DNA of 64,000 nucleotides from a virus, in IMG/VR virus record IMGVR_UViG_3300029286_002355, positions 1 through 64,000 of that record. One strand, 5' to 3'. Position numbers and translations under genes: made by a program. The notes under the pieces were generated by a model. The model did no database searches. It was not told the origin of the DNA and saw only the letters and a list, made by a program, of their open reading frames with translations. Shown here piece after piece: positions 4,202 to 58,536 of this stretch (the first letter of the stretch is position 1; each line of letters begins with the position of its first letter).

Positions 4202-5377
4202 TTATCCGTTTAGTCTGACGTACTCTTTATTCAATTCTATTTGTTGCAGCAAAATATGAAGTTCGTGACCCATATTTCCTCTTGCCTTAGCTTCATACAT
4301 CTCATAAAACGGTTCCCAAGCAAATATTTTCTTTCTAGCCAACATTTTTGTAAGGAAATCACTTCTCCCCTGTAGCCATTTACCTTCGAATTCGTTTTTG
4401 GTTAAGCCACTGTTCTTTAGATACTCTTCTTTAACCCTCTTAACATAATTATCGTAACCATCAACGTCTGAAGCCAATACCAGCAAATCAATACTGGAAA
4501 ACCTTTCTTCAAGTTCGGTTTTATATTCGCAAGTTTCATGTTTGGTTGAAGCAATAAGAGTCTTAACTAATTCACGACTTTTTTCATCACAGCGAAGCAG
4601 CCTTATATGTGCATAACTCATACAATCATCTACTGTCGCAAAAACGTCATGCAACCAAAAAGCCATTTCAACTTCGAAACGTTTATCTATCGTGGCCATA
4701 GAATCGAATGTTTCCAAGCAATTTAGGATGTGATTGATGTTATGATAAGCGTTTGAATTCATTCCTTTTATTCTCAACCACATTTCTTCTCTGACATTTG
4801 GAGATGGCGGAACATTAAATCCCATTTCTCCATTTACTAATTTCATAAAACGCTTTTCGGCATATTGAGTAACTAGATAATCCAAGGTAAGCGGAGAAAC
4901 ATATTGCTCCACAACTTTTCGCCACCCTCTTTGTCCTACCAATCCCTTAACCCAAGAAGAACTAACCAAACTTAAAGCTTCATCGGGCATTAAATAAAGC
5001 GTTTCTACGGATGGCTGAATAATCTTGTTGGTATGGTAAATCTGATTCTCGTAATGAAAATCCATAGAATCTCGAATGCCACGAACCAGAAACTTTGCCC
5101 CTATCTCCTTGGCAAAATCTACTAGATAGGTTGTGTCAGGTAGAGTTTGAATAACCACATTGTTTTCTTGGACTCCTGCAATATATTGAATGGTGTCTCG
5201 CAGCATTTCAACTCTGTCTTCAATAGGGAAGGAAGGCGTTTTATTTACGTTAGTTGCAACAACAATATGGAGTTTATCAAAAACAGAACAAGCTTTCTTG
5301 ATAATTTGAGAATGGCCCAAGGTGCAAGGGTCAAAAGTTCCTCCATAGGCGGCAATAAGTTCTCCAGAGTTATTCAT
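4202..5377 (-). CDS. coaD: Phosphopantetheine adenylyltransferase (CoaD) fused to an HD-domain hydrolase
   Basis: Residues 1 to about 165 match CoaD, which turns 4'-phosphopantetheine and ATP into dephospho-CoA: the nucleotide-binding GGTFDPCTLGH, then RGIRDSMDFHYE and the SSSWVK loop. The RGIRD and SSSxVK patterns point to CoaD rather than NadD. The remaining 220 residues carry YHNxxH and LHDVF, signatures of small HD metal-dependent phosphohydrolases. The start is taken at ATG 5377, with GAGGG six bases before it and an 8-nt overlap with the upstream gene; a GTG four codons earlier is less likely. The CoaD-HD fusion is unusual. CoaB and CoaC occur at 21-24 kb. Confidence 0.85.
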   Translation of the reverse strand: MNNSGELIAAYGGTFDPCTLGHSQIIKKACSVFDKLHIVVATNVNKTPSFPIEDRVEMLRDTIQYIAGVQENNVVIQTLPDTTYLVDFAKEIGAKFLVRGIRDSMDFHYENQIYHTNKIIQPSVETLYLMPDEALSLVSSSWVKGLVGQRGWRKVVEQYVSPLTLDYLVTQYAEKRFMKLVNGEMGFNVPPSPNVREEMWLRIKGMNSNAYHNINHILNCLETFDSMATIDKRFEVEMAFWLHDVFATVDDCMSYAHIRLLRCDEKSRELVKTLIASTKHETCEYKTELEERFSSIDLLVLASDVDGYDNYVKRVKEEYLKNSGLTKNEFEGKWLQGRSDFLTKMLARKKIFAWEPFYEMYEAKARGNMGHELHILLQQIELNKEYVRLNG

Positions 5378-5711
5378 ATTTTCCCTCACTAACTCTCTTT
5401 ATAGAATTGCGAATATCAATTTGTTGCAGTTTCTTCCTGTCTTCGGAAATCCCTCTCGCTTTATCTAAGTTGCTTTCTATCCAATAATATAATCCTGCTA
5501 TTGTGTAAAAAACGATAAGAAATGCAATCACAACCCCCGGCATGAAATAAACCATAAAAACCAGCCATACATTTGCGCTTAAGAACATCCAAGAAGCCAA
5601 TAACCATAAAAGAGAACCTATAATTACTATGGCGGCAAGCATTCCCAGAACCATAGCAATTTCCTTAATCTTTAGCCAACAAAAAATAAGCGCAACATTT
5701 GTGGTTTTCAT
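5370..5711 (-). CDS. Membrane protein, 113 aa
   Basis: Three hydrophobic stretches (about 20-40, 45-70 with a break, and a C-terminal amphipathic part) end in a Lys/Arg-rich tail. Overlaps the CoaD-HD start by 8 nt, so probably coupled to it. Function unknown. Confidence 0.65.
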   Translation of the reverse strand: MKTTNVALIFCWLKIKEIAMVLGMLAAIVIIGSLLWLLASWMFLSANVWLVFMVYFMPGVVIAFLIVFYTIAGLYYWIESNLDKARGISEDRKKLQQIDIRNSIKRVSEGKYE

Positions 5712-28938: not shown

Positions 28939-30308
28939 ACGAGCGGAAACCCCGATATCTTTAGTGTCGGGGAGGTAAGCGAGTTACTAACTTACTTTCC
29001 ACTACTCCTTTCTTTAGCCATTATTATACATTAATATCTCCCAAATTCAAGCAAAAAGAAATATTAAAATAATAGAAGGAATTTGTATAATAATTAAAGA
29101 AAGTAATATATATGAAAACATACAATGTTCAACTTGAGTTTCAGAGCGAAGAAGACAAAGATCTTCTTCTCGCTACCTTTGAAGTTCATAAGAATATTTG
29201 GAATTATACCTCTAAATACGTCTTTGCCCATAAACTGAAGGCTTGGGGCAAAGACGTTCACGAAGCTACTTACCACAAATGCAGAAAGAAATTCCCTACC
29301 TCTCCTTCCCAAATTATAATTAGAGCAAGAGAGGATGTTGTAGCTACTTTCAAAACCATAAAGTCTAACAATCATAAGATTGAAGAATGTCCAGTTAAAA
29401 CTCATTATTCAATAAGATTGGACAAGAGGCTTTATACTTTACAAAGGGATTCAATCAAACTAACTACAGTAGAAAAAAGGATAATTTGTAAACTCAAACT
29501 CTATAAGAAACTTGAAGAGTTATTTAAGTATGAGGTTAAAGATCCATTAATTTTTGTTAGAAACAATCAGATTTATTTAGCCTTAACCTTTGATACTCCT
29601 GAGCCTATATTCAATCCCAATCAATGCGTTGGAATTGATTTGGGATTGAATCGTATTGCAGTAACTTCAGAAGGTAAAATAATTTCAGGTAGTAATTACA
29701 TTAGAACCAAAAGAAAAATCAGATATTTAAAGAGATGTTTACAACGCAAGAAAAAATTAAGAGTTAAGAAATCTGATTCAGCAAGAAAACATTTGAGAAA
29801 ACTAAAAAGAAAAGAACTCAATTATTCCAAAAATTATATCCACCATTTGGCTAATGAACTACTTAAAACTAATTGTAATACTTTAGTTTTAGAAGATCTT
29901 AGTTCCCTCAAAGACCATAGCAAAGGAAGATTACAAAATAATAAATTATCTCAAGTTCCATTTTTCCAGTTACTAACAATATTAAAATACAAGGCACAAG
30001 CTCTAGGTAAAAGAGTAGAAACTGTTAATCCTGCTTATACCTCTAAAGATGACTATAGAGGAATTGAAAAAGGCATAAGAAAAGGATGTAGGTATTATGC
30101 ATCAGATAAGGTAGTTCTTGATGCAGACCTCAACGCTTCCATAAATATTGGGAAGCGTTGGGGTGATAAAAATAAACTTCCTGTTTCGTTTGTAGTCCCC
30201 TTAGACGGGAAATACAAACTAAATGGGCAGGCTGTGTGTCAACCAGCCAATCGTTTAGTGCCTTTGACTAGACAAGCCCAGACATCTTTAGTGTCTGGGT
30301 AGTTGACA
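28939..30308 (+). mobile_element. tnpB-only IS200/IS605-type element
   Basis: The left end (from about 28939, ACGAGCGGAAACCCC) forms the stem CCCCGATA/TGTCGGGG (28950-28957, 28965-28972) around loop TCTTTAG. The right end forms CCCAGACA/TGTCTGGG (30277-30284, 30292-30299) around the same loop, then TAGTT. There is no tnpA. The left-end sequence is shared with the element at 40029. Confidence 0.8.
29112..30302 (+). CDS. tnpB: TnpB, subfamily without the Cys4 finger
   Basis: 396 residues. RuvC residues are in GIDLGLNRIAV, LVLEDLSSLK and LDADLNASINI. Where the zinc finger normally lies it has YTSKDDYRGIEKGIRKGCRYYASDK, a loop with one Cys, a known variant of OrfB proteins. It probably relies on a transposase elsewhere for movement. 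It reads against all surrounding genes. Confidence 0.88.
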   Translation: MKTYNVQLEFQSEEDKDLLLATFEVHKNIWNYTSKYVFAHKLKAWGKDVHEATYHKCRKKFPTSPSQIIIRAREDVVATFKTIKSNNHKIEECPVKTHYSIRLDKRLYTLQRDSIKLTTVEKRIICKLKLYKKLEELFKYEVKDPLIFVRNNQIYLALTFDTPEPIFNPNQCVGIDLGLNRIAVTSEGKIISGSNYIRTKRKIRYLKRCLQRKKKLRVKKSDSARKHLRKLKRKELNYSKNYIHHLANELLKTNCNTLVLEDLSSLKDHSKGRLQNNKLSQVPFFQLLTILKYKAQALGKRVETVNPAYTSKDDYRGIEKGIRKGCRYYASDKVVLDADLNASINIGKRWGDKNKLPVSFVVPLDGKYKLNGQAVCQPANRLVPLTRQAQTSLVSG

Positions 30309-40028: not shown

Positions 40029-41405
40029 ACGAGCGGAAACCCCGACATCTTTAGTGTGGGGGAGGTAAGCGAGTTACTATATCCACTCATCTCCTTTCTT
40101 TAACTTTCTACTATTATACATCTTTAATTCCTGAAATGCAAGAAAATAATCAAAGAAATAAAGAGGAAAAGACTAAATAGTTATAGAAGAACATAATATA
40201 TGAATATCTTAACGTATAATATAAAACTTGAACCGAAAGATAAGGAAGAATATGATCTTCTTTATTCTACACTACTTGAACACCAGAAGGTTTGGAATTA
40301 TATGTCAGAATACGTTTTTAAGTCAAAGAACGTAGATAAACGATTAATCCACGACAAAAATTACCATAAGTGCAGAAAACTGTTTCCCGATTGTCCTTCC
40401 CAAATAATAATTAGAGCCAAGGATTCTGTATTTTCTACCTATAAAACTATTCAATCTAATCATCACAAATTAGAAAAGCCAGCAAAACAAGAAAATCTCT
40501 CTGTTAGGCTTGACAAAAGAATATATACGTTCTTTCCTAATAATAAAATCAAACTAACTACGACAGGAAAAAGAATAATGTGCTCTTACGTTCCCTATTC
40601 TAAATTTCAAGAGATGTTCAATAGATATGCCGTATGTGATCCACTTTTGTTTTTTAAAGACAATCAGTTTTGGCTTTCTGTTTCTTTTGAGGTTAATACC
40701 CCAACTCTTATAGAAAATAGCTGTATTGGAGTGGATTTAGGTATTAAACGGTTTGCAACAACCTCTGAGGGAATTTCTTTTATAGATAGAACGTTCCTTA
40801 AAGAAAAAAGAAAATTGAGATATCTAAAGCGAATCTTACAGTCAAAATCCAAATCTACCTTTTCTCGTTCTGCTCAAAGAAAACTAAAGAACCTTAAGAA
40901 AAGAGAACAAAATAAGAATAAAAATCAAACTCATCTCATTGCTAACAAAATTCTAAACACTAAGTCTAATGTTATTGTTATGGAAGATTTAAGTGGAATT
41001 AAATCTTCTAATAAAGGTAAGAAATTTAATAACAGACAATCTCAAGTTCCTTATTTTGATTTAAGAAGGATACTAACATACAAGGCACTATTGCAAGGAA
41101 AAACAATAGTAACGGTTGACCCTGCTTATACCTCTAAAGATGACTATACTGGTCTTGAACGAGGAATAAGAAGTGGATGCAGATATTACACCTCAGACGG
41201 CAGAGTTTATGATGCAGATTGGAATGCTGCTATAAATATTGCTCAACGTTATTCTATAAGAAAAAGAGTAAAAGGTGTAAAACTCCCTGTTTCGTTTAAT
41301 ATACCTATTGATGGTAAATTAAACCTTATAGGCAAGCCACATCAACTGGCTAATCGTGAGATAAGGTCTCGCAAACCCAATGATCTTTAGTCATTGGGTA
41401 GTTGA
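40029..41405 (+). mobile_element. tnpB-only IS200/IS605-type element, second copy of the 28.9 kb type
   Basis: Left end ACGAGCGGAAACCCC with stem CCCCGACA and loop TCTTTAG as in the element at 28939. Right end stem CCCAATGA/TCATTGGG (41377-41384, 41392-41399) with the same loop, then TAGTT. The right end abuts the stop codon of the phosphoesterase gene at 41406. Confidence 0.8.
40200..41390 (+). CDS. tnpB: TnpB, subfamily without the Cys4 finger
   Basis: 396 residues, same length and architecture as the protein at 29112 but clearly diverged. RuvC residues in GVDLGIKRFAT, IVMEDLSGIK and YDADWNAAINI; YTSKDDYTGLERGIRSGCRYY replaces the zinc finger. The stop lies in the right-end hairpin loop. 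Confidence 0.88.
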   Translation: MNILTYNIKLEPKDKEEYDLLYSTLLEHQKVWNYMSEYVFKSKNVDKRLIHDKNYHKCRKLFPDCPSQIIIRAKDSVFSTYKTIQSNHHKLEKPAKQENLSVRLDKRIYTFFPNNKIKLTTTGKRIMCSYVPYSKFQEMFNRYAVCDPLLFFKDNQFWLSVSFEVNTPTLIENSCIGVDLGIKRFATTSEGISFIDRTFLKEKRKLRYLKRILQSKSKSTFSRSAQRKLKNLKKREQNKNKNQTHLIANKILNTKSNVIVMEDLSGIKSSNKGKKFNNRQSQVPYFDLRRILTYKALLQGKTIVTVDPAYTSKDDYTGLERGIRSGCRYYTSDGRVYDADWNAAINIAQRYSIRKRVKGVKLPVSFNIPIDGKLNLIGKPHQLANREIRSRKPNDL

Positions 41406-42137
41406 TTATGCCCCCTTGAATAACCGATCTGATAAATACGATGACAAACTAGCATACTTAATAGCCGACTCTGTTTTGGCAATATTGTAAAACACCCTTC
41501 TAAGAGTAAAAGTAACATTATCGCCAAAATCAAAAATACCATAACAAGCCCTGCAATCTCCGTCTCTGGGTTGTCCTACACTTCCAACATTTACAATAAA
41601 CTTTTGGTCTTTATCTAGAACCATATCATCTGTCAAGAATTCATATAGTCCATTTTTACTTCCAAAAACAAATGGATTGTGCGTATGTCCAACCAAACAT
41701 ATTCTAGACGGAGTTATTTTCAGTTCTTCCCTTGCCTTGTGTTTGGCATCTATATAATTCCATAGAGAAGGTTCTGAAAAAGATCCATGACATAAAACCA
41801 TATCCAATTCAGGAATATTTATGGTATGTGGAAGATTGGCTATAGCTTTTATTGCTTCTTCGCTAAGATTTTTTCTCGCATAACGAACCCCCTCAATGGC
41901 ATAAAGATTCAATTCTTTCTCCATAACGGCATTACAAACGCATTCTTCGTGATTTCCCTTGATCATTTTCTGGCAAAGAGAAGAGACAATACCCAAACAT
42001 TTAAGTGGATCTGGCCCATATCCTACAACATCTCCAAGACAATAAACTACGCCAATATCTTGTGACTTTAGATCCTCTACAACAGCCTGTAAAGCTTCCA
42101 AGTTTCCATGAATGTCAGATATGATGGCTATTTTCAT
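41406..42137 (-). CDS. Metallophosphoesterase, YfcE/MJ0936-like
   Basis: 243 residues. DIHGN, GDVVGYGP, GNHEE, CHGS and GHTH are the five calcineurin-like metal motifs. Relatives hydrolyse phosphodiesters or diadenosine polyphosphates. It follows PPK2 with a 4-nt overlap. Confidence 0.88.
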   Translation of the reverse strand: MKIAIISDIHGNLEALQAVVEDLKSQDIGVVYCLGDVVGYGPDPLKCLGIVSSLCQKMIKGNHEECVCNAVMEKELNLYAIEGVRYARKNLSEEAIKAIANLPHTINIPELDMVLCHGSFSEPSLWNYIDAKHKAREELKITPSRICLVGHTHNPFVFGSKNGLYEFLTDDMVLDKDQKFIVNVGSVGQPRDGDCRACYGIFDFGDNVTFTLRRVFYNIAKTESAIKYASLSSYLSDRLFKGA

Positions 42138-42901
42138 TTGACGACAACTCCCTTCAAGAAATTTACGGGTTTTGGGTATTCCATATTGAGCATGGTCATT
42201 TCTTTAACCGTAATTTTTGCAATGAGTAAATTTCTATACCACTGAGAGTTTGATGGAATAATTTGCCAATATTTAGTATTAGTTGCATTGATAACTTGAT
42301 CGTATGCATCTATATATTTGTCCCACAGAAGTCTTTCTTTAAGGTCTGCTTCTGATATTTTCCAGTTTTTAGCTGGGTCATCAATTCTCTCCTGAAGCCT
42401 TTCCCTTTGTTTCTCTTTGGATATATGCAGGAAAAACTTTAAAATTGTGGTTCCTTGCCGCCACAACATATCTTCAAAAGTGTTAATATATCTATATCTG
42501 TCTCGAATTTCATCATTCCCTACTAATTCATGAACCTTGGGGAACAGAACATCCTCATAATAACTTCTATTAAAAATAACAATTTCTCCTTTGGCCGGAA
42601 CTTGTTTATGTATTCTCCACAAAAAGTCATGATCAGATTCCTCTTGGGTTGGAGTTTTAAACGAAACTACCCTTACCCCTTGAGGATTAAAACCGCTAAA
42701 GGAATGGCGAATAACTCCATCTTTACCCGAAGCATCCATACCCTGCAAAACAATTAAAATACTATGTTGGTGTCCTGCATATAACAACTCTTGTAATTTA
42801 GACAATTCTTCCTGAACCATAACCATTTCTTTTATGGCTTCTTCTTTTTGGCCTTTTTTGAAAGCAGGGTCTATGTTTTTAAGATTCATTTTATCAATCA
42901 A
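42134..42901 (-). CDS. ppk2: Polyphosphate kinase 2 family protein
   Basis: 255 residues, the size of one-domain PPK2. Walker A (GMDASGKDG), the lid FNRSYYEDVLFPKVH and the C-terminal WYRNLLIAKI are all family features. PPK2 makes ATP or GTP (or their diphosphates) from polyphosphate, so it may supply energy when the host is depleted. The start overlaps nadE by 8 nt. Confidence 0.9.
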   Translation of the reverse strand: MIDKMNLKNIDPAFKKGQKEEAIKEMVMVQEELSKLQELLYAGHQHSILIVLQGMDASGKDGVIRHSFSGFNPQGVRVVSFKTPTQEESDHDFLWRIHKQVPAKGEIVIFNRSYYEDVLFPKVHELVGNDEIRDRYRYINTFEDMLWRQGTTILKFFLHISKEKQRERLQERIDDPAKNWKISEADLKERLLWDKYIDAYDQVINATNTKYWQIIPSNSQWYRNLLIAKITVKEMTMLNMEYPKPVNFLKGVVVK

Positions 42902-43628
42902 AAGTAAGTGTTTCTGGCATCTTCCGCTTGTGTTCGGAGTTTTTTATCCTTCTCATAATATTACTAACTTTATCTTCGCCTAAATTTAACTTTAAGTCAT
43001 GCAGTTGCCCCTGAACCCTTCCTGTCAGTAGTTTTAGAATATTATCCATTTCACTATAGGGCATCCCAATTTCGCTTTCATCGGTTTGCCCAGCCCACAA
43101 TTCCGCAGAAGGAGGCTTGTTAAGAATGCTTGGTGGGAAGTTCGGATAAGTTTTGGCAACTTCCCATACTTCGGTTTTGAATAAGCCGCCAATAGGTTCT
43201 ACATCACATCCACCATCGCCATACTTAGTAAAATATCCAAGCATCATTTCTGTTCTATTACTCGTACCAATAACCAAACCATTATTTTCAGAAGCTAGTC
43301 CGTAAAGAATAGCCATGCGAACTCTTGCTCTGGTATTTCCCATGGTTAGACGGTTGGTAAAACCAAATCCGTCCACAATCAACTTAATGTTTGTACATCC
43401 ATAATTGGGAAGTTCTAGGATCGAAGCCACTTTATCTGCATCACCGGTTGATTGATCGCCATAAGGCATTGTTCTTGCAAAAATTTTATCTTTACCCAAA
43501 GCTTCAACGCAGAGAAATGTAATAAGGGCAGAGTCCACCCCACCCGATTCCCCTATAATAGCGTTTCGTCCATTCATAAAAGAACGTATTTTTTCAACCA
43601 AATTGGCTCTGACTTTTATATAATCCAT
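42894..43628 (-). CDS. nadE: NH3-dependent NAD+ synthetase
   Basis: 244 residues. The ATP-pyrophosphatase loop ESGGVDSAL, then NTRARVRMAILYGLA, GTSNRTEMMLGYFTKYGDGGCD and PSAELW are NadE signatures. It amidates nicotinate adenine dinucleotide to NAD+. No glutaminase domain, so it uses ammonia. AAGGAGATAACA precedes ATG; it heads a transcript with ppk2. Confidence 0.93.
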   Translation of the reverse strand: MDYIKVRANLVEKIRSFMNGRNAIIGESGGVDSALITFLCVEALGKDKIFARTMPYGDQSTGDADKVASILELPNYGCTNIKLIVDGFGFTNRLTMGNTRARVRMAILYGLASENNGLVIGTSNRTEMMLGYFTKYGDGGCDVEPIGGLFKTEVWEVAKTYPNFPPSILNKPPSAELWAGQTDESEIGMPYSEMDNILKLLTGRVQGQLHDLKLNLGEDKVSNIMRRIKNSEHKRKMPETLTFD

Positions 43629-44428: not shown

Positions 44429-46111
44429 TCATTTTTTCATCTTTACAGAATACAATTTCTTCCCATCGGTATAATACATTCCACCCGAAACATTAAACAT
44501 TCTATCAGAGGCACCAAAAGGAGGATTATCAATAACCTTTACGTTCTCCCCCTTAAATACTTCAACATTGGAATCGCTTACCAAAACAGCAACCCCATTA
44601 GGCATAACGGTTAAATTCATATTACAGTAAGATACATCGTGGGTTATTCTAATGGTATATTTTGCATAGGAAGGATCAAATGACAACACCAGTCTAGTAT
44701 ACTCTCCCTTCTTTTCTGCAATAATAGCACATACGTTTCTTTCCGATCTAGCATCAATAATCCGAAGACCATCCAATTCCTTAACATGAATACTTTGGCA
44801 AGAACCTTTTACATAAGGAATGGTTACATATTTTTTCCCTAGCAAATCCTGTATGATTACTCCATCAAAAACTTGGGTAGAAAGATCCATAACCGAAAGA
44901 GCCATGCGTGTTCCATGCACCGTCTTTTCTCCAAATCGAGTAAAACTATTTTCAATTAATTTGCCATCAAAAACGGTGTAAATGCATCCGTTTCGATACA
45001 TCATATCTTCTGCCGCAATCTTCCCTACGTCTTTTCCGTTATCGTCAAAAATAGAAACTATTCCGTCCTTAAGAATACAAACCACAGGAGCTACCCCATT
45101 CGATTCGCACATAAGAACCTTCTTTGCGTCGTCAATGATAACAGGAAGTTTAGCTCTACCCTTATAAATATTTTTCTTGCCAATTAAGAAGTTGATACCC
45201 ATGAAATTGAAAACGTTCAAAATGACTTCGGGACATTCTTCCGAAAGAACCGTGATGAATGCATCTGTAGCCGATATGATATTGAAAGTATGTGGAATAG
45301 CTACCGAAACAATATCTCCCATGCTAGGCGGGGAACATCGGGCATTGTCAACGAAAACTTGCTTAAGCCATTTTAAATGACTACTTGGAATAATGGAAAA
45401 ATCATTACAGGATTTGGGGAGAGAAACTTTGGGATCAAAAATAGAGATGCCCTTTTCCATTCTCTTCAACCACTCGCTATTTTTGTAATCAGGATGAGAA
45501 CCTTTAAATGGATGAATTCCCACCCACAATTGAGTAGCTAAGACAGCAAAAGAGAACCAATCGCTTCCTTCATTCCATTTGTTAGCCTTAATGGTTCTGT
45601 CACGAATACTCTCCATGATTGCCGTAGCTCTAAAAGATGGGGTTTGATAAGAATCTACATCAATAAAAAATACATCATCAAATTTCTTAGCAACCAATTC
45701 GTTCATTTCGTTAAGGTCTACTATAAGACAATTCGCATCATGAATGGACTGAACGACCACTTGCATTTGAGATATCAATTCGTTTACCTGCTCATTACTT
45801 ATGTTATTTTGCTGTTTGAAACTATTGGTAAATAGTTGGCAGAGAGGGTAAGAGCCCTTCTTAAACTCCAAAGCATATCCGACAGGTTTATTGTCTTCAT
45901 AAACAATAGCTAATGGGATAAGAACATTAGGGTGTTTGATTTGCTTTAATTCATCAATTTTTTGAGAAGGAAGCATTTGTTGTGGGTCATTGTAAATCTT
46001 GTATGCAGTTTTATCTTTGACGTAGATAGAAGCTTCTCCACCGCTTGCTAGGTAGTCATTATCGGTAAGGGTTATCTTCCCCATCCCTTCAACTGTATAA
46101 GTAGTCTTCAT
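44429..46111 (-). CDS. Protein kinase of TerY-P type with beta-propeller-like C-terminal half
   Basis: 560 residues. Kinase elements in residues 1-260: glycine loop ASGGEASIY, lysine in AYKIY, catalytic loop IVDLNEMNELV with Asp and Asn, metal-binding FIDVDSYQ in place of DFG, and SDWFSFAVLATQLW. This form belongs to the divergent kinases of TerY-phosphorylation systems. Residues 300-560 are repeated beta segments without a known name. With PP2C and vWA genes next door it completes the triad. Confidence 0.8.
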   Translation of the reverse strand: MKTTYTVEGMGKITLTDNDYLASGGEASIYVKDKTAYKIYNDPQQMLPSQKIDELKQIKHPNVLIPLAIVYEDNKPVGYALEFKKGSYPLCQLFTNSFKQQNNISNEQVNELISQMQVVVQSIHDANCLIVDLNEMNELVAKKFDDVFFIDVDSYQTPSFRATAIMESIRDRTIKANKWNEGSDWFSFAVLATQLWVGIHPFKGSHPDYKNSEWLKRMEKGISIFDPKVSLPKSCNDFSIIPSSHLKWLKQVFVDNARCSPPSMGDIVSVAIPHTFNIISATDAFITVLSEECPEVILNVFNFMGINFLIGKKNIYKGRAKLPVIIDDAKKVLMCESNGVAPVVCILKDGIVSIFDDNGKDVGKIAAEDMMYRNGCIYTVFDGKLIENSFTRFGEKTVHGTRMALSVMDLSTQVFDGVIIQDLLGKKYVTIPYVKGSCQSIHVKELDGLRIIDARSERNVCAIIAEKKGEYTRLVLSFDPSYAKYTIRITHDVSYCNMNLTVMPNGVAVLVSDSNVEVFKGENVKVIDNPPFGASDRMFNVSGGMYYTDGKKLYSVKMKK

Positions 46112-46362
46112 TCATCTTTCTTCCAAACAATTTTATACCTTCTCACAATTGTATCTACGTCAAATGCCCTACAATCATCGCATACTCCACCAAGTTTATT
46201 TATGTTCCCAACAAGAAATATACCTATTTTTGTATCAATGAGAGTACCGGGAATATTGAGATGTCTCTTGCAAAAAGAATCTAATTCGTCCAATTCTTTT
46301 CCCTTTTCGTTTGAGTAAATAGTCCCAAAAGGTAATCCGCACTTAATCCATCCATCTTTCAT
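46108..46362 (-). CDS. Hypothetical protein, 84 aa
   Basis: Alpha/beta protein with CxxC (GVCDDC); sits between PP2C and kinase, overlapping the kinase start by 4 nt. Perhaps an accessory part of the triad. Confidence 0.6.
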   Translation of the reverse strand: MKDGWIKCGLPFGTIYSNEKGKELDELDSFCKRHLNIPGTLIDTKIGIFLVGNINKLGGVCDDCRAFDVDTIVRRYKIVWKKDE

Positions 46363-46371
46363 AACTCCTCC

Positions 46372-47250
46372 TTATACCACTACGGTTGCTATAGAAATGT
46401 CATCAAAATGAGACATAAGTAGTTTTTTGTGATCTTTCTGCAAAGCCTTCATCCTTCTTTGGACAAAAACCCCCGATGTATTCTTGTAAGCCACAAAGCT
46501 ATTAACAATATCTTCCGATAGGACATTATTCATTCCATTGTCAGATTGCTTTTGATAGCTTTTTACTCCATCCGACATAAGCGATATACTTTCTATATCC
46601 TTGAACGTAAATGAAGTATTGTCCCACCCTATTGAAGGATGAGGAGATAAATTAATTTGCTTGCTTGCATTTTTCCTGAGTCCATTTAGTTGTTGTAGGT
46701 TTTGACATACATCTAACATCCCACCAAATTCTTGAACATAACACGCCAACCGATTAGAATCTAAGGGATAAGATGGGTAGTAAGGTGCTCCACTTAAATA
46801 GGTTACGTCAATGATATTCAGATCCCCATTCTTGAATTTAATAGCCGCAACGCCATCTCCGAACATAAAGAGATTGGCCTTATCTTTGTCAACAACGGTC
46901 AGGAGCAATGTGCAATCGGAGAACAGGGGAGAAAGGTCAAGATGTTTTCTTACAATTTCTACCTCTTGCATAATACAATCTCTAATTTTTTCTTGCTCAC
47001 TAGAGAATTCGGTTCCTCTTTCTTTGTCAATTTCCGAAAGGGTTTTTACGACATCCGAATGCATCAATAATTTTCTTGCGGCATAGGCAACAACCCTAGC
47101 CCCTAAATCTGCTTGACCACTTATGTTATGGGATTCGGAGCAACCATCTGTAACAATGGCAAAACCAATTCCATCCTTCTCCCCTGTTAAAGCATAATCT
47201 TGACAGGATTCGTGAGAAGAACCAATTTCAAAATAGCAATCGGTTTTCAT
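46372..47250 (-). CDS. PP2C-family protein phosphatase
   Basis: 292 residues. Metal ligands appear in SCQDYAL, AIVTDGCS, LMSDGVKSY and FDDISIAT, the usual PP2C order. It should oppose the neighbouring kinase. Overlaps its upstream neighbour by 4 nt. Confidence 0.85.
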   Translation of the reverse strand: MKTDCYFEIGSSHESCQDYALTGEKDGIGFAIVTDGCSESHNISGQADLGARVVAYAARKLLMHSDVVKTLSEIDKERGTEFSSEQEKIRDCIMQEVEIVRKHLDLSPLFSDCTLLLTVVDKDKANLFMFGDGVAAIKFKNGDLNIIDVTYLSGAPYYPSYPLDSNRLACYVQEFGGMLDVCQNLQQLNGLRKNASKQINLSPHPSIGWDNTSFTFKDIESISLMSDGVKSYQKQSDNGMNNVLSEDIVNSFVAYKNTSGVFVQRRMKALQKDHKKLLMSHFDDISIATVVV

Positions 47251-47657
47251 ATTTGTTTTACCCGATATTCAGGGAAGGGTTTTGCGCCACGGAATTTTTC
47301 AACAACAATATCGACATGCGGAGCTTTGTTAATAAGAACCAACACAAATCCACCTATTTTGACTACAGAATAAGAGTATCTGAAGTTAATGACGCTAAGT
47401 AGTTCTCTTTTGAGTGTAGGGCCAAAATCAAAAGCCTTTATCTTTCCGTCTGAGGCATCAATAACATTTGACCTATAGCGAATATGTCCTTTGGCGTTAT
47501 CTTTCTCGCAACATGGACAACCTTTAAAATGTTTTTGATAGGTAACAACAGGACTATCGGGAAGGATACGAATTTTTACAGGTTCTCCATCTTGCAGCTT
47601 AATGAATTCGAGTTTTGTTGGCCCCAAATAATCTTTCATTTTATCATATATTAGCAT
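47247..47657 (-). CDS. Hypothetical protein, possibly nucleic-acid binding
   Basis: 136 residues. KLQDGEPVKIRILPDSP near the N-terminus resembles the start of phage single-strand-binding-like proteins, and CPCCEKD is a possible zinc site. The link is weak. Confidence 0.55.
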   Translation of the reverse strand: MLIYDKMKDYLGPTKLEFIKLQDGEPVKIRILPDSPVVTYQKHFKGCPCCEKDNAKGHIRYRSNVIDASDGKIKAFDFGPTLKRELLSVINFRYSYSVVKIGGFVLVLINKAPHVDIVVEKFRGAKPFPEYRVKQI

Positions 47658-47675
47658 ACGTCCTTTCTAAGACAA

Positions 47676-47700
47676 AGGGCGAGATATTCCATCCCGCCCT
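47676..47700 (-). terminator. Weak hairpin terminator
   Basis: AGGGCG/CGCCCT stem with a 13-nt loop, followed on the minus strand by TTGTCTT, after the stop of the gene at 47730. Confidence 0.4.
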
Positions 47701-47729
47701 CCACTTACAAATCAATTGCCCAATACAAA

Positions 47730-48068
47730 CTATTCCAAACAAGTAACGGAATCTGCAACATAAGTTCCGGGAGGAGCAACTTCAATATCTGACTTGCACA
47801 AAGTATTTTCCCATAAATACTTTATGCCACCCAAATATTTTGCGATACGTTTTTGTTTTCGTGGATTTTTTGCAATACATTTTACAACCAATATATCTGT
47901 GTATTGAGAAGCAAAAGCAGTGGCATCTTTTTTTTCTTTAAAAAAGAATAGTTTTGATCCTATTAGAGATGGAAACACTTCAACATTAACAGGATAGGTT
48001 AGAGCAAAGTAGTTTCCATATGAACTAATAGAATCTCTTCGGTTGTTAAGAACTTTCCATCCATTCAT
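47730..48068 (-). CDS. Three-copy family protein (GTYVADS family), copy 1
   Basis: 112 residues. Shares with 53822-54226 and 58162-58536 an N-terminal GWKVL and RR.SIS, central YPVNVEVFPSL.GSKLFFFK, VKCIA.NP.K and a C-terminal GTYVADSVTCLE. Soluble, alpha/beta; function unknown. It lies between the vWA and PP2C genes. Confidence 0.7.
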   Translation of the reverse strand: MNGWKVLNNRRDSISSYGNYFALTYPVNVEVFPSLIGSKLFFFKEKKDATAFASQYTDILVVKCIAKNPRKQKRIAKYLGGIKYLWENTLCKSDIEVAPPGTYVADSVTCLE

Positions 48069-48076
48069 ATTTCACC

Positions 48077-48853
48077 TTAGAACGTAAGTTTAGATGAAGC
48101 TACCGTTGACGTTCCCGAAGCAAGAGCCTGAGACGTAGAAGAAATACTACGACTGATATATCCTGCCAATTTAGCCAAGGTCTTTTCAGGAGATGTCTTT
48201 TGGAACAAATCCGTCAAATCAACAAACTGAGTGATATCCGCATCCTTTCTGAAATCGTCCAAATAAACAACGGTACTGTTATCGCTATATCCAACCCCAA
48301 CAAGAATAACAGCAATAGATTCCAGCTTTTCTTCCTTCTTAGCCTTGTCAATAGCTTTCTTACAAGTCTTAGCTGTAGCCTTACCCATATTGTTAGCCCC
48401 ATCAGTTAGAACATAGATAACTCCATTAGCGGAGTAATCCTGATCCACAAGAAGCTTTCCGTAATCCGCTGTAGCTTCAACACAAGATTGAACGGCATCG
48501 AATAAGGAAGTACAGCCACCAATTTGAACGGCATCGGTATATTCCTTTTCTTTAATGTCTGTAAGAAGCCTGAAACCGTGGACTTCTACAACCGTATCGC
48601 TAAACATAACTAGACGAAAGAGAAGATTATGTTTTCTTGGAGAGCTTTGACAAGACTTTAAAATGGTCTTCAAGCAATCTTCCAACTGTTTTCGATAGCT
48701 ACTTACCGAACCTGATACGTCAACCACCACTGTAGCTAACGTATATTCACTTGCTCCTGACAGCGAATCCAATCCAACGGCACTAAACCGATAATTGGAA
48801 GCAGTTGAAAGCTGCTGCATACTCACATTTTCATCTACAACGATATCCGGCAT
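48077..48853 (-). CDS. vWA-domain protein, TerY-like
   Basis: 258 residues. MIDAS residues: VVVDVSGSVSSY (DxSxS), a threonine near TSLFDAV and VLTDGANNMGK. The size and the partner kinase and phosphatase genes fit TerY, the vWA part of the TerY-P triad thought to respond to stress through phosphorylation. A Ser/Thr-rich tail ends the protein. Confidence 0.8.
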   Translation of the reverse strand: MPDIVVDENVSMQQLSTASNYRFSAVGLDSLSGASEYTLATVVVDVSGSVSSYRKQLEDCLKTILKSCQSSPRKHNLLFRLVMFSDTVVEVHGFRLLTDIKEKEYTDAVQIGGCTSLFDAVQSCVEATADYGKLLVDQDYSANGVIYVLTDGANNMGKATAKTCKKAIDKAKKEEKLESIAVILVGVGYSDNSTVVYLDDFRKDADITQFVDLTDLFQKTSPEKTLAKLAGYISRSISSTSQALASGTSTVASSKLTF

Positions 48854-49999: not shown

Positions 50000-50188
50000 T
50001 TATTCTTTAACCCATTGATGACCGCATTTATGACAAGTAACCTTAATAGCTCTCTTGGATAAGGCCCAATTGAACACCTTACGATAAAAGAATTGTTTTA
50101 CAATACCACCAAACAATCCATAAGTTGTTATCGTAAGGTTTCGCTTACAATTAGGGCATACCAAATCGAGTTTAGTTACCAGTTGCAT
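50000..50188 (-). CDS. Small zinc-ribbon protein, 62 aa
   Basis: CPNC (11-14) and CHKCG (52-56) form a zinc ribbon around a hydrophobic centre. Its ATG touches the stop of the hydrolase upstream. Confidence 0.65.
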   Translation of the reverse strand: MQLVTKLDLVCPNCKRNLTITTYGLFGGIVKQFFYRKVFNWALSKRAIKVTCHKCGHQWVKE

Positions 50189-50982
50189 TAAGCAAGGTAC
50201 TCCGTAGACTTCTCAACCCTCATTCCACGTTTAATCATGTCGATAACGAAGTCTTTACCAAGCTTATCAAAGCCGGTTACATTCGAACAGCAATCTTCTA
50301 GGAGAACGAATTTCTTGATATTTTCGTCACCAAAAGCTTTAGCCACTTGTTCAACGGTAGCTTTTACGCAATGGCTTAACGCCTCTCCTGCTATTAAAAG
50401 AGAGTCCGCCTCCTGAAGAGTCTTTATTAGTCCAGTATTTAACATGGTGCTAGGTTCTTCGGGAGAGGGAACTTCCGCCTCAAGTGCCCCATAATGCTCC
50501 GACATATAGAAATCGCCTTTAACACAATAATCCGCCATTCTCTTCCTGTCTTTTTCCCATTGAATAATAGCATCAGAAACGTTAGGGACAAGAGCATGGC
50601 CCCAAGATCCTATAAGACAGTGATAGGGCCAAATAATTAGTGGATATTTACCCTTTGTCGATAGCTCTTCAACATAATCAATTCCCCTTTTTCTCAGTCC
50701 CAAAAGGGTTGTTTGCCACACACTCTTCCTGACATCATCTACGCTAATAACCGTAAATGGCTGAGGATGCTCGTTTTTGGAATTAACCCAGAAAGCAGAA
50801 TGGAATACCTGCATTACTTTGTGTGAATCTAAAGTTGCATGTATACGGTCAATTTTCTTGCCCACCCTATTGATGAATTTAGACAATCTATCCATATCCC
50901 CATCGGCACCGGGAACGAACAAATTCCCTTTTGGACTAGAAAAATCATTTTGACAATCAATAGCTAACAGATGTACTTTCAT
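50188..50982 (-). CDS. Isochorismatase-family hydrolase, nicotinamidase-like
   Basis: 264 residues. Asp in AIDCQNDF, a central basic residue (lysine or arginine near KSVW), and the catalytic Cys in GEALSHCVKATVEQ form the family triad; DSHKVMQVFHSAFW resembles the metal site of nicotinamidase. PncA turns nicotinamide into nicotinate for NAD+ salvage. Other isochorismatase activities cannot be excluded. First gene of the transcript that includes the kinase-phosphatase-vWA set. Confidence 0.75.
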   Translation of the reverse strand: MKVHLLAIDCQNDFSSPKGNLFVPGADGDMDRLSKFINRVGKKIDRIHATLDSHKVMQVFHSAFWVNSKNEHPQPFTVISVDDVRKSVWQTTLLGLRKRGIDYVEELSTKGKYPLIIWPYHCLIGSWGHALVPNVSDAIIQWEKDRKRMADYCVKGDFYMSEHYGALEAEVPSPEEPSTMLNTGLIKTLQEADSLLIAGEALSHCVKATVEQVAKAFGDENIKKFVLLEDCCSNVTGFDKLGKDFVIDMIKRGMRVEKSTEYLA

Positions 50983-53145: not shown

Positions 53146-53834
53146 GGATTTTGATTAATTTTTATGACCAATTTATCACTTAAATATTTTGCCCCCAACA
53201 AGAAATCAAACTCTTCTTTATTGGTTGGTAATTCTCCGAAAACATCTTTAATAACATTTACTAAATAAAGAGGATGGCTTTGTTTATCCCATGCGTCAAT
53301 AGGATGGTTTTCGTCTCCATCTGACTCCCAGTGATCTTCTAGCCATTTATAACTACAAGCAATCCCTATTTCAACTACTTCATTTAATATCCATGATGGC
53401 AAATGATGGAGGGATAGTTTGGTTACGTTTTTATATCCTGCCAAAATAGGATTACAAAATGGTGAGTGTCTATCGTTTTTCGGTTCATGACATAACGCTA
53501 TATCCAATCGAATGTTAAAGGGGTGCATCCAAACAAAGGCGTTCCTATTTTTAACCCAATTAGCCCATGTTCCACAATTCAATTTGGGCCTTAAAGCTTT
53601 ATTACAACTATCATATCCGTTATTGCTGATATCCGAATGATAATCTAGGTTAATAATACGATCACAATGAGATTTATTTATAAATGGGAGTAGGTCGGCG
53701 TGATCATCCACAATTTTGATTGGTAGACCAGTAGCCTTAATTTGCCGCATGAATTTAAGGCATTCTTTTGCGGGTCTATCGTTCCAAAAATCTAGATCTA
53801 TGGATAGATACGTTTTCAAGGTTATCTCAAACAA
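53142..53834 (-). CDS. Arginase-fold-like protein (UPF0489-like)
   Basis: 230 residues. SIDLDFW, VDDHADLLPF and NLDYHSDI give the spaced Asp/His pairs seen in UPF0489/peptide-arginase-type proteins. Substrate unknown; identification tentative. Confidence 0.5.
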   Translation of the reverse strand: MFEITLKTYLSIDLDFWNDRPAKECLKFMRQIKATGLPIKIVDDHADLLPFINKSHCDRIINLDYHSDISNNGYDSCNKALRPKLNCGTWANWVKNRNAFVWMHPFNIRLDIALCHEPKNDRHSPFCNPILAGYKNVTKLSLHHLPSWILNEVVEIGIACSYKWLEDHWESDGDENHPIDAWDKQSHPLYLVNVIKDVFGELPTNKEEFDFLLGAKYLSDKLVIKINQNP

Positions 53835-54226
53835 GTAATGGAATCTGCGACATAAGTTCCGTGAGGGGCGTTTTCGGTAAAAGGGACAGAAGCACCTTTT
53901 GTTTTATTTACATAATCCCAAAAATATGTTAGCTGGGTTAAGCTATTAGTAATGAATGGTTGTTTTTTGGGGTTAGTGGCAATACATTTTACAGTAATAT
54001 ATTCTACTCCATTATACCTGCCTAACCTGCCTATGTAATTTTTGGCATCTTTTTCACTTTTAAAAAAGAATAATTTTGATCCTTTTAGAGACGGAAACAC
54101 TTCAACATTGACCGGATAACGTATAGAATGAATATTTAGATTATCCCAATCGCTAATGGAGCGTCTATTCTTTTTAAGTAAAACTTTCCACCCCTTACAC
54201 TTATTTATTGTTTTTGATTTTTTCAT
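53822..54226 (-). CDS. Three-copy family protein (GTYVADS family), copy 2
   Basis: 134 residues from ATG 54226 (AAGGAGACAAGT). Same motif order as copies at 47730 and 58162: KGWKVL, NRRSISDWD, RYPVNVEVFPSL, GSKLFFFK, VKCIATNPKKQ, GTYVADSITCLR. Overlaps the downstream gene by 13 nt. Confidence 0.7.
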   Translation of the reverse strand: MKKSKTINKCKGWKVLLKKNRRSISDWDNLNIHSIRYPVNVEVFPSLKGSKLFFFKSEKDAKNYIGRLGRYNGVEYITVKCIATNPKKQPFITNSLTQLTYFWDYVNKTKGASVPFTENAPHGTYVADSITCLR

Positions 54227-54254
54227 ACTTGTCTCCTTCTCTGCAATACGAACG

Positions 54255-54497
54255 TCATTTTTCATAAGTTACTGTTCTTTTTCTTTTGGGAACAGGAGCC
54301 GAAGCTTTGGGTTCTTTACACTCGTCTTGATCTAGCGGAACCACGTAAGTATCAACTCCGCAACCGCAACCGCATGTAAAATGAATTATTTTACCTTTAA
54401 TAATTCCTCTTTTGATTCTGGAATTGAGAACTGAGTCTATCCACTTGGACTCTCTCATTTGTTTCCCGCTTAAGAAATACTTATCCGATCTTTTCAT
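54255..54497 (-). CDS. Small basic protein with CGCGC motif, 80 aa
   Basis: Start at ATG 54497 (GGAGGAAG) inside the ligase gene end. FTCGCGCGVDTY is a likely metal-binding loop; the tail is Pro/Lys-rich. Confidence 0.6.
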   Translation of the reverse strand: MKRSDKYFLSGKQMRESKWIDSVLNSRIKRGIIKGKIIHFTCGCGCGVDTYVVPLDQDECKEPKASAPVPKRKRTVTYEK

Positions 54498-58161: not shown

Positions 58162-58536
58162 TCATTCCAAACAAGTGATGGAGTCAGCAACGTAAGTTCC
58201 TTCTGGTGCAAGATTTAAAAGACTGCTGATACCTGTTATTTCCCAAGAATATTTTATATCTTCTCTCATTGCGGCAACATATTTTTTCTTTTTTGGATTT
58301 TTAGCAATGCACTTCACAATTATACAATCGCTACAACTAGCCCTATCGAAACAAACAGCATCGGCATATTTTTTAAAAAAGAACAGTTTTGATCCAGTTA
58401 GTGTTGGGAACATTTCGACATTAACTGGATAGGTTATAGCGAACTCGTTTTTACCACTCCAATCGCTGATAGAACGTCTATTCTTTCTAAGTAAAACTTT
58501 CCACCCTTCGCACATCTTTGCCTTTTGTTTTTTCAT
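58162..58536 (-). CDS. Three-copy family protein (GTYVADS family), copy 3
   Basis: 124 residues; EGWKVLLRKNRRSISDW, YPVNVEMFPTLTGSKLFFFK, VKCIAKNPKKKK and the end GTYVADSITCLE are shared with the copies at 47730 and 53822. It overlaps the upstream gene by 4 nt. Confidence 0.7.
   Translation of the reverse strand: MKKQKAKMCEGWKVLLRKNRRSISDWSGKNEFAITYPVNVEMFPTLTGSKLFFFKKYADAVCFDRASCSDCIIVKCIAKNPKKKKYVAAMREDIKYSWEITGISSLLNLAPEGTYVADSITCLE

Follow-up and report, generated by a model that had tools for sequence, protein, structure and literature searches.

A conserved gene set of huge phages joins a TerY-P-like kinase, phosphatase and vWA triad to a nicotinamidase and to NAD salvage genes

TerY-P triads, which encode a vWA-domain protein, a PP2C-type phosphatase and a YegI-type kinase, are to our knowledge widespread, with neither targets nor inputs known. 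Linked TerD-family genes are common in these systems, though not required. We know of no operon for salvage of nicotinamide adenine dinucleotide (NAD) that includes such a triad. Depletion of NAD is an established defence against phages, and rebuilding of NAD by phages using NARP1 is also established (PMC12774641). Here we describe a TerY-P-like triad in a 64,000-nt stretch of DNA (the window), positions 1 to 64,000 of the virus record IMGVR_UViG_3300029286_002355 (G000; 186,119 bases), which is a large-phage fragment. The conserved unit comprises four genes, with the nicotinamidase gene upstream of the triad included, and is not the triad alone.

All four genes are on the minus strand of the window. 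The first encodes a nicotinamidase of the PncA/Pnc1 type (NIC; 50188-50982), assigned to the Isochorismatase Pfam. It is followed by genes for a VWA protein with an intact metal ion-dependent adhesion site (MIDAS; D45, S49, T115, D151) (48077-48853; PF00092, 7e-9), a PP2C-type protein phosphatase (46372-47250; PF13672, PP2C_2, 9.8e-11, which exceeds the cut-off) and a Ser/Thr kinase of the YegI type (44429-46111). The kinase domain spans residues 1-270 and matches Pfam Pkinase at 6.9e-7, slightly below the cut-off (29.4 bits versus 31.7); an all-beta, propeller-like C-terminal half spans residues ~280-560. A first-pass annotation had recognized the last three genes as a TerY-P-like triad that runs in one direction on a phage, and the open reading frames and Pfam matches bear this out. 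It had also placed the triad behind a nicotinamidase-like gene, which is correct, but missed that this gene is a core member.

The same annotation counted three small unknown genes within the triad. Open reading frames of 112 aa (47730-48068) and 136 aa (47247-47657) do occur between the VWA and PP2C genes, as does one of 84 aa (46108-46362) between the PP2C and kinase genes, all on the minus strand. We considered these as parts of the unit and rejected them, because none of the three has relatives in the other related loci. Within the window, the 112-aa protein matches only the products of 53822-54265 and 58162-58536 (minus strand), and these three scattered, paralogous proteins of unknown function are 49-58% identical.

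Single-protein scans of viral contigs returned no matches, and alignment-based scans were required to find relatives. Those of IMG/VR recovered 54 loci with the kinase and 80 with the nicotinamidase. All loci were searched with four profiles and then merged at ≥90% protein identity, which gave 90 clusters. In 80 of the 90, all four genes are on one strand; several of the other ten are truncated at contig ends. The order is nicotinamidase-VWA-PP2C-kinase in 75 of these 80 clusters, and one more seems shuffled owing to an over-long PP2C reading frame. The only other orders are PP2C-kinase-nicotinamidase-VWA (three clusters) and VWA-PP2C-kinase-nicotinamidase (one). Thus, the gene set, whose lack of conservation would have counted against the first-pass annotation, is conserved in relatives, and 75-76 clusters share one order. 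The gap between the nicotinamidase and VWA genes is <100 bases in 57 of the 75. The clusters are divergent, with median pairwise identities of 48% (NIC), 43% (VWA), 33% (kinase) and 28% (PP2C). Given that 80 of 90 such clusters have the genes on one strand, this gene set is far from chance. Distances between members correlate for every pair among the four genes (Mantel r 0.61-0.79, equalled by no permutation).

The nicotinamidase gene was found in the retrieved stretch of 51 of the 54 viral kinase loci and elsewhere on the contig in two; the remaining locus is cut at a contig end. A nicotinamidase thus accompanies the viral kinase family on all untruncated contigs. Only three records of a phage collection encode the kinase: LR756511 (595 kb), LR745208 (485 kb) and LR756500 (462 kb). 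All three have the nicotinamidase, VWA, PP2C and kinase genes in this order on one strand, and in LR756500, a distant relative, they form a tight operon.

NIC has the isochorismatase fold, and its match to the PncA NCBIfam model (3.7e-8) is under the family cut-off. The top 15 structural matches of its AlphaFold2 model (mean predicted local distance difference test score, pLDDT, 96.4) are exclusively nicotinamidases or relatives of Pnc1/PncA (Z 20-24), the best being the fly, yeast, Acinetobacter and Leishmania enzymes (Z 22.7-24.2), and other cysteine hydrolases score ≤19.8. Superposition on Pnc1 gives a Z of 24.1 over 212 residues, with a root-mean-square deviation of 2.9. An alignment of 70 members, with NIC also aligned to Pnc1, shows that D9, D52, H54, H121, K155 and C205 are invariant and that H61 is retained in ≥90%. 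These include the Asp-Lys-Cys triad (D9, K155, C205), and the metal ligands are also conserved. NIC shares only ~25% identity with solved nicotinamidases and exceeds PncA in length. Based on the model, NIC is structurally a nicotinamidase and deamidating activity is predicted. Distant relatives of NIC sit on Vibrio megaplasmids of 880-940 kb. One of these, on a Vibrio vulnificus plasmid (NZ_CP015514.1, 783717-784556; locus L181), is beside an RNA ligase gene and near a TerD-family gene, and has no recognizable triad within 8 kb.

The MIDAS residues of VWA (D45, S49, T115, D151) are invariant in 65 members, as are the PP2C residues D18, D35-G36, G131-D-G, D227 and D283-D284, also in 65 members. 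Profile-profile comparison (hhalign) relates VWA to Escherichia coli YegL (probability 91%), although vWA is a broad fold and the VWA profile missed YegL in an hmmsearch. The link of PP2C to E. coli PphC is weak (hhalign 76%). In contrast, the kinase aligns with E. coli YegI at 98.8% probability over 252 columns, and its profile retrieves YegI at 1e-19 (hmmsearch). The reading of the set as a phage-borne TerY-P-like triad, similar to YegL/PphC/YegI, is borne out. We did not identify TerD-family genes in any of 50 carrier records, so the observation in the first-pass annotation that other ter genes are lacking holds for TerD.

In 79 members, the catalytic and metal aspartates of the kinase (D132 and D151) are invariant, and the lysine K38 and asparagine N137 occur in ≥90%. 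The alignment with YegI covers the kinase domain only and ends at profile column 269; the C-terminus is unlike that of YegI. In the AlphaFold2 model (mean pLDDT 93.8), the kinase fold gives way to ~280 residues of beta strands, and the structure is all-beta past residue 280. This agrees with the earlier remark that the C-terminal half is unusually beta-rich. Sequence searches with this half found no similar solved structure, and the matches of the kinase in a VIA search were taken up by the kinase domain. Thus, the description of the predicted C-terminal half as propeller-like rests on its secondary structure and on viral Foldseek matches, which include a full-length phage kinase and proteins that we took to be propellers.

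Apart from its own four genes, the unit has PncB, NadE, Nudix and NadD as its commonest neighbouring families in viral loci (Pfam-confirmed on examples). At least one of PncB, NadE and NadD is encoded in the retrieved flanks of 42 of the 90 clusters, always on the NIC strand. The strand agreement is partly unsurprising because the gene runs are long and one-directional. NadE lies nearby in 29 of the 90. Across whole carrier records, NadE was identified in 36 of 50 and NAPRT in 33 of 50. A few of the PF04095 matches are weak and may reflect proteins resembling Nampt, which together with Nmnat makes up the enzyme pair of NARP2. None of 12 random viral contigs encodes NadE, although this is a weak control as only three exceed 100 kb. 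Seven of the 50 phage records encode NrtR_WHD. The phage of the window has both PncB (G000, 75020-76198) and NadE of the Preiss-Handler set. We conclude that the genomic link of the unit to NAD genes is well supported. The surroundings are NAD salvage genes and not tellurium or general stress genes, which the first-pass annotation missed. Sequence and predicted structure show what the genes encode, that catalytic residues are intact, and that the genes are collinear, co-inherited and linked to NAD genes. In one viral locus (L131:8989-13289), remnants of PP2C (66 aa) and of the kinase (83 aa) are flanked by an intact nicotinamidase gene and by PncB-NadE-NadD. The triad of this locus is decayed, and its salvage genes are retained.

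Downstream of the triad in the window, and on the same strand, are a methyltransferase-like gene, the gene for NAD synthetase (NadE; 42894-43628, minus strand; PF02540, 2.7e-63) and a gene for a PPK2 polyphosphate kinase (42134-42901, minus strand; PF03976, 8.9e-69) that overlaps NadE by 8 bases. PPK2, a neighbour rather than an established member of the unit, possibly supplies polyphosphate-derived ATP for salvage. The NadD (NMNAT) step is uncertain. A candidate is encoded at 4202-5389 (minus strand), where a nucleotidyltransferase (PF01467, 6.1e-17) is joined to a phosphohydrolase-like domain. Its product partially matches phrog_3462 (nicotinamide-nucleotide adenylyltransferase; 1.4e-7) and also matches phrog_19425 (phosphohydrolase). 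No known RNAs, including riboswitches, were found near the unit in the window or in loci L141, L159, L160 and L157. Promoter-like and terminator-like sites between 41000 and 52500 are about as numerous as in shuffled sequence.

Adjoining the phage PncB gene are ABC-transporter-like genes (G000:C1:69619-75000; L139:5619-10995, minus strand). One encodes a permease (BPD_transp_1); the others include an apparent ATPase, a lipoprotein that contains a vWA-like motif and a large protein that possibly binds substrate. It would be unusual for a phage to encode an uptake system next to a gene for NAD salvage. Two plus-strand open reading frames of 396 aa run against the general gene direction of the window. 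One (40200-41390) encodes a TnpB/IS605 OrfB-type protein with a Cas12f1-like TNB domain; the second is at 29112-30302.

The set is phage-borne, as initially reported, but it is not restricted to phages: it also occurs on Variovorax megaplasmids and on some chromosomes of bacteria. In bacterial genomes, one scan recovered 26 relatives, mainly in metagenome-assembled genomes. The four-gene operon occurs in Acidobacteriota, Armatimonadota and Desulfobacteraceae, and there is a form without a recognized PP2C in Myxococcota. In two Acidobacteriota (L141, L159), NrtR (Nudix + NrtR_WHD) is encoded directly upstream of the nicotinamidase, and in Armatimonadota NadE is the next gene downstream of the kinase. 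A lone kinase gene followed by NrtR was identified in two Thiotrichaceae and a deltaproteobacterium (L143, L147, L149), with a NudC-like gene next in L143. A megaplasmid of the soil strain Variovorax sp. SRS16 encodes PP2C-kinase-pncB and, ~20 kb away, nicotinamidase-VWA beside genes for NrtR, a Nudix hydrolase and a macro-domain protein.

Phylum-wide, the kinase was found in one of 396 genomes of Acidobacteriota, and in seven of 42 from the order to which Ca. Venteria belongs. The chromosomal form is therefore sporadic. In a quick kinase tree, bacterial sequences fall among phage sequences with at least six changes of label; support values are mixed, and the sampling is biased towards phages. 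Some of the bacterial contigs, chiefly a 31 kb contig assigned to Lokiarchaeota, may be mis-binned phage contigs. The kinases of a 1.36 Mb Armatimonadota contig (L148) and a 479 kb viral contig (L036) are sisters in this tree. Near the L148 locus are an RtcB-like gene and a gene for phosphoribosyl pyrophosphate synthetase, and L148 could represent a giant element, either integrated or mis-binned.

The fixed order of nicotinamidase with kinase, phosphatase and vWA genes suggests that NAD recycling is tied to a phosphorylation switch. We consider it probable that the four genes form an NAD-salvage signalling unit of huge phages, sporadic in bacteria, with a phosphorylation switch of the YegI/TerY-P type. 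The nicotinamidase would convert nicotinamide, which NAD-cleaving enzymes release, to nicotinate. From nicotinate, PncB, NadD and NadE, whose genes are often close by, would rebuild NAD via the Preiss-Handler route. The kinase and PP2C would constitute a reversible Ser/Thr phosphorylation switch, in which the beta domain of the kinase may be sensor- or scaffold-like and the MIDAS-bearing VWA may serve as a metal-dependent adaptor. The target of the switch could be the nicotinamidase, a different salvage enzyme or NrtR.

Several points weigh against a dedicated NAD-salvage switch. The support is guilt by association, and the enzyme activities, the kinase target and the regulation of flux are inferred. 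Most records are fragments, and the search patterns were derived from unit-bearing members, so relatives outside the unit are under-sampled. In about half of the clusters, no additional NAD gene lies close by. Phages that lack the triad can also encode PncB and NadE, and salvage therefore does not require it. In bacteria, several other lone kinases, two of them on ~4.2 Mb contigs, have no adjoining NAD gene, and PP2C or NIC is absent from some loci.

The phages may use the unit for counter-defence, rebuilding NAD that has been cut by host NADase defences (TIR, SIR2 and similar) via the Preiss-Handler route rather than NARP, with the triad detecting nicotinamide, ADP-ribose or NAD loss and activating salvage. 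Two points make a role against NAD-depleting immunity attractive: NIC would use nicotinamide that NADases set free, and rebuilding by NARP1 is a precedent. Nudix, PncB, NadD and NadE genes are close by, and the set is mostly phage-borne. However, no defence context was seen, and the bacterial chromosomes and megaplasmids carry the unit with NrtR in what resembles ordinary NAD homeostasis; these copies argue for a broader homeostatic role. We thus regard counter-defence as possible but not probable. More speculative still is the proposal of a new class of Ser/Thr switch for NAD salvage, spread mainly by huge phages, whose beta domain would sense NAD breakdown and activate the phage Preiss-Handler pathway, undoing NAD-depleting immunity.

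Could the nicotinamidase instead be hitch-hiking with a classical TerY-P/YegI stress triad, the kinase of which targets unrelated stress or metal proteins? The similarities to YegI, PphC and YegL are as expected in that case, but the lack of TerD, the presence of the nicotinamidase in all uncut viral kinase loci and the occurrence of NrtR with the kinase family in several bacteria make it unlikely. Phage kinases such as T7 0.7 are used for host takeover, and the unit is within a long run of genes in one direction. The kinase and phosphatase might therefore rewrite host phosphorylation while the NAD genes are a separate supply function on a shared transcript. We think this improbable, given that bacteria retain the same operon and that takeover leaves unexplained the fixed order and co-inheritance of NIC across genes of 28-48% identity. 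Least plausible is hydrolysis by NIC of another amide, for example in synthesis or removal of modified nucleotides. The length of NIC, its low identity to solved nicotinamidases and the diversity of cysteine hydrolases with this fold would allow it. The structural matches, the invariant catalytic and metal residues and the neighbouring PncB, NadE, NadD and NrtR genes all point to nicotinamide.

The probable NAD-salvage switch would give a TerY-P-type triad a concrete, testable input (NAD state) and, through the nicotinamidase and NrtR, a short list of targets. It also suggests that regulated NAD salvage is a common trait of huge phages, with bearing on NAD-depleting anti-phage defence. The triad and phage NAD salvage are each of known kinds; it is their fixed combination that appears to be new. 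No description of this combination was found in the open-licence literature searched. The main text of a paper on huge phages (PMC7162821) does not mention NAD, kinases, phosphatases or vWA, and a phage nicotinamidase appears in PMC10607447 solely in a table.

The phage unit resembles the TerY-P triad and E. coli yegI-pphC-yegL in that a vWA protein, a PP2C and a YegI-type kinase are encoded together. The kinase shares with YegI the GGE loop, a D-x-N-x-x-N catalytic loop and ID-x-DS-(F/Y)-Q in place of DFG. It differs in the all-beta, propeller-like C-terminal half, which does not align to YegI, in the nicotinamidase as a fixed fourth gene and in a context of NAD salvage and NrtR without TerD. 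As in Preiss-Handler salvage (PncA, PncB, NadD, NadE), a nicotinamidase is encoded in the same phages as PncB, NadE and NadD-like proteins, and L131 has all four in one run. Like NARP1 (Adps, Namat), these phages encode a route from nicotinamide to NAD; unlike NARP1, that route is deamidating and uses different enzymes, and a counter-defence role is here only a proposal. NrtR-regulated NAD operons are also similar, as NrtR adjoins NIC or the kinase in several bacteria, but here a phosphorylation module lies between the regulator and the salvage genes.

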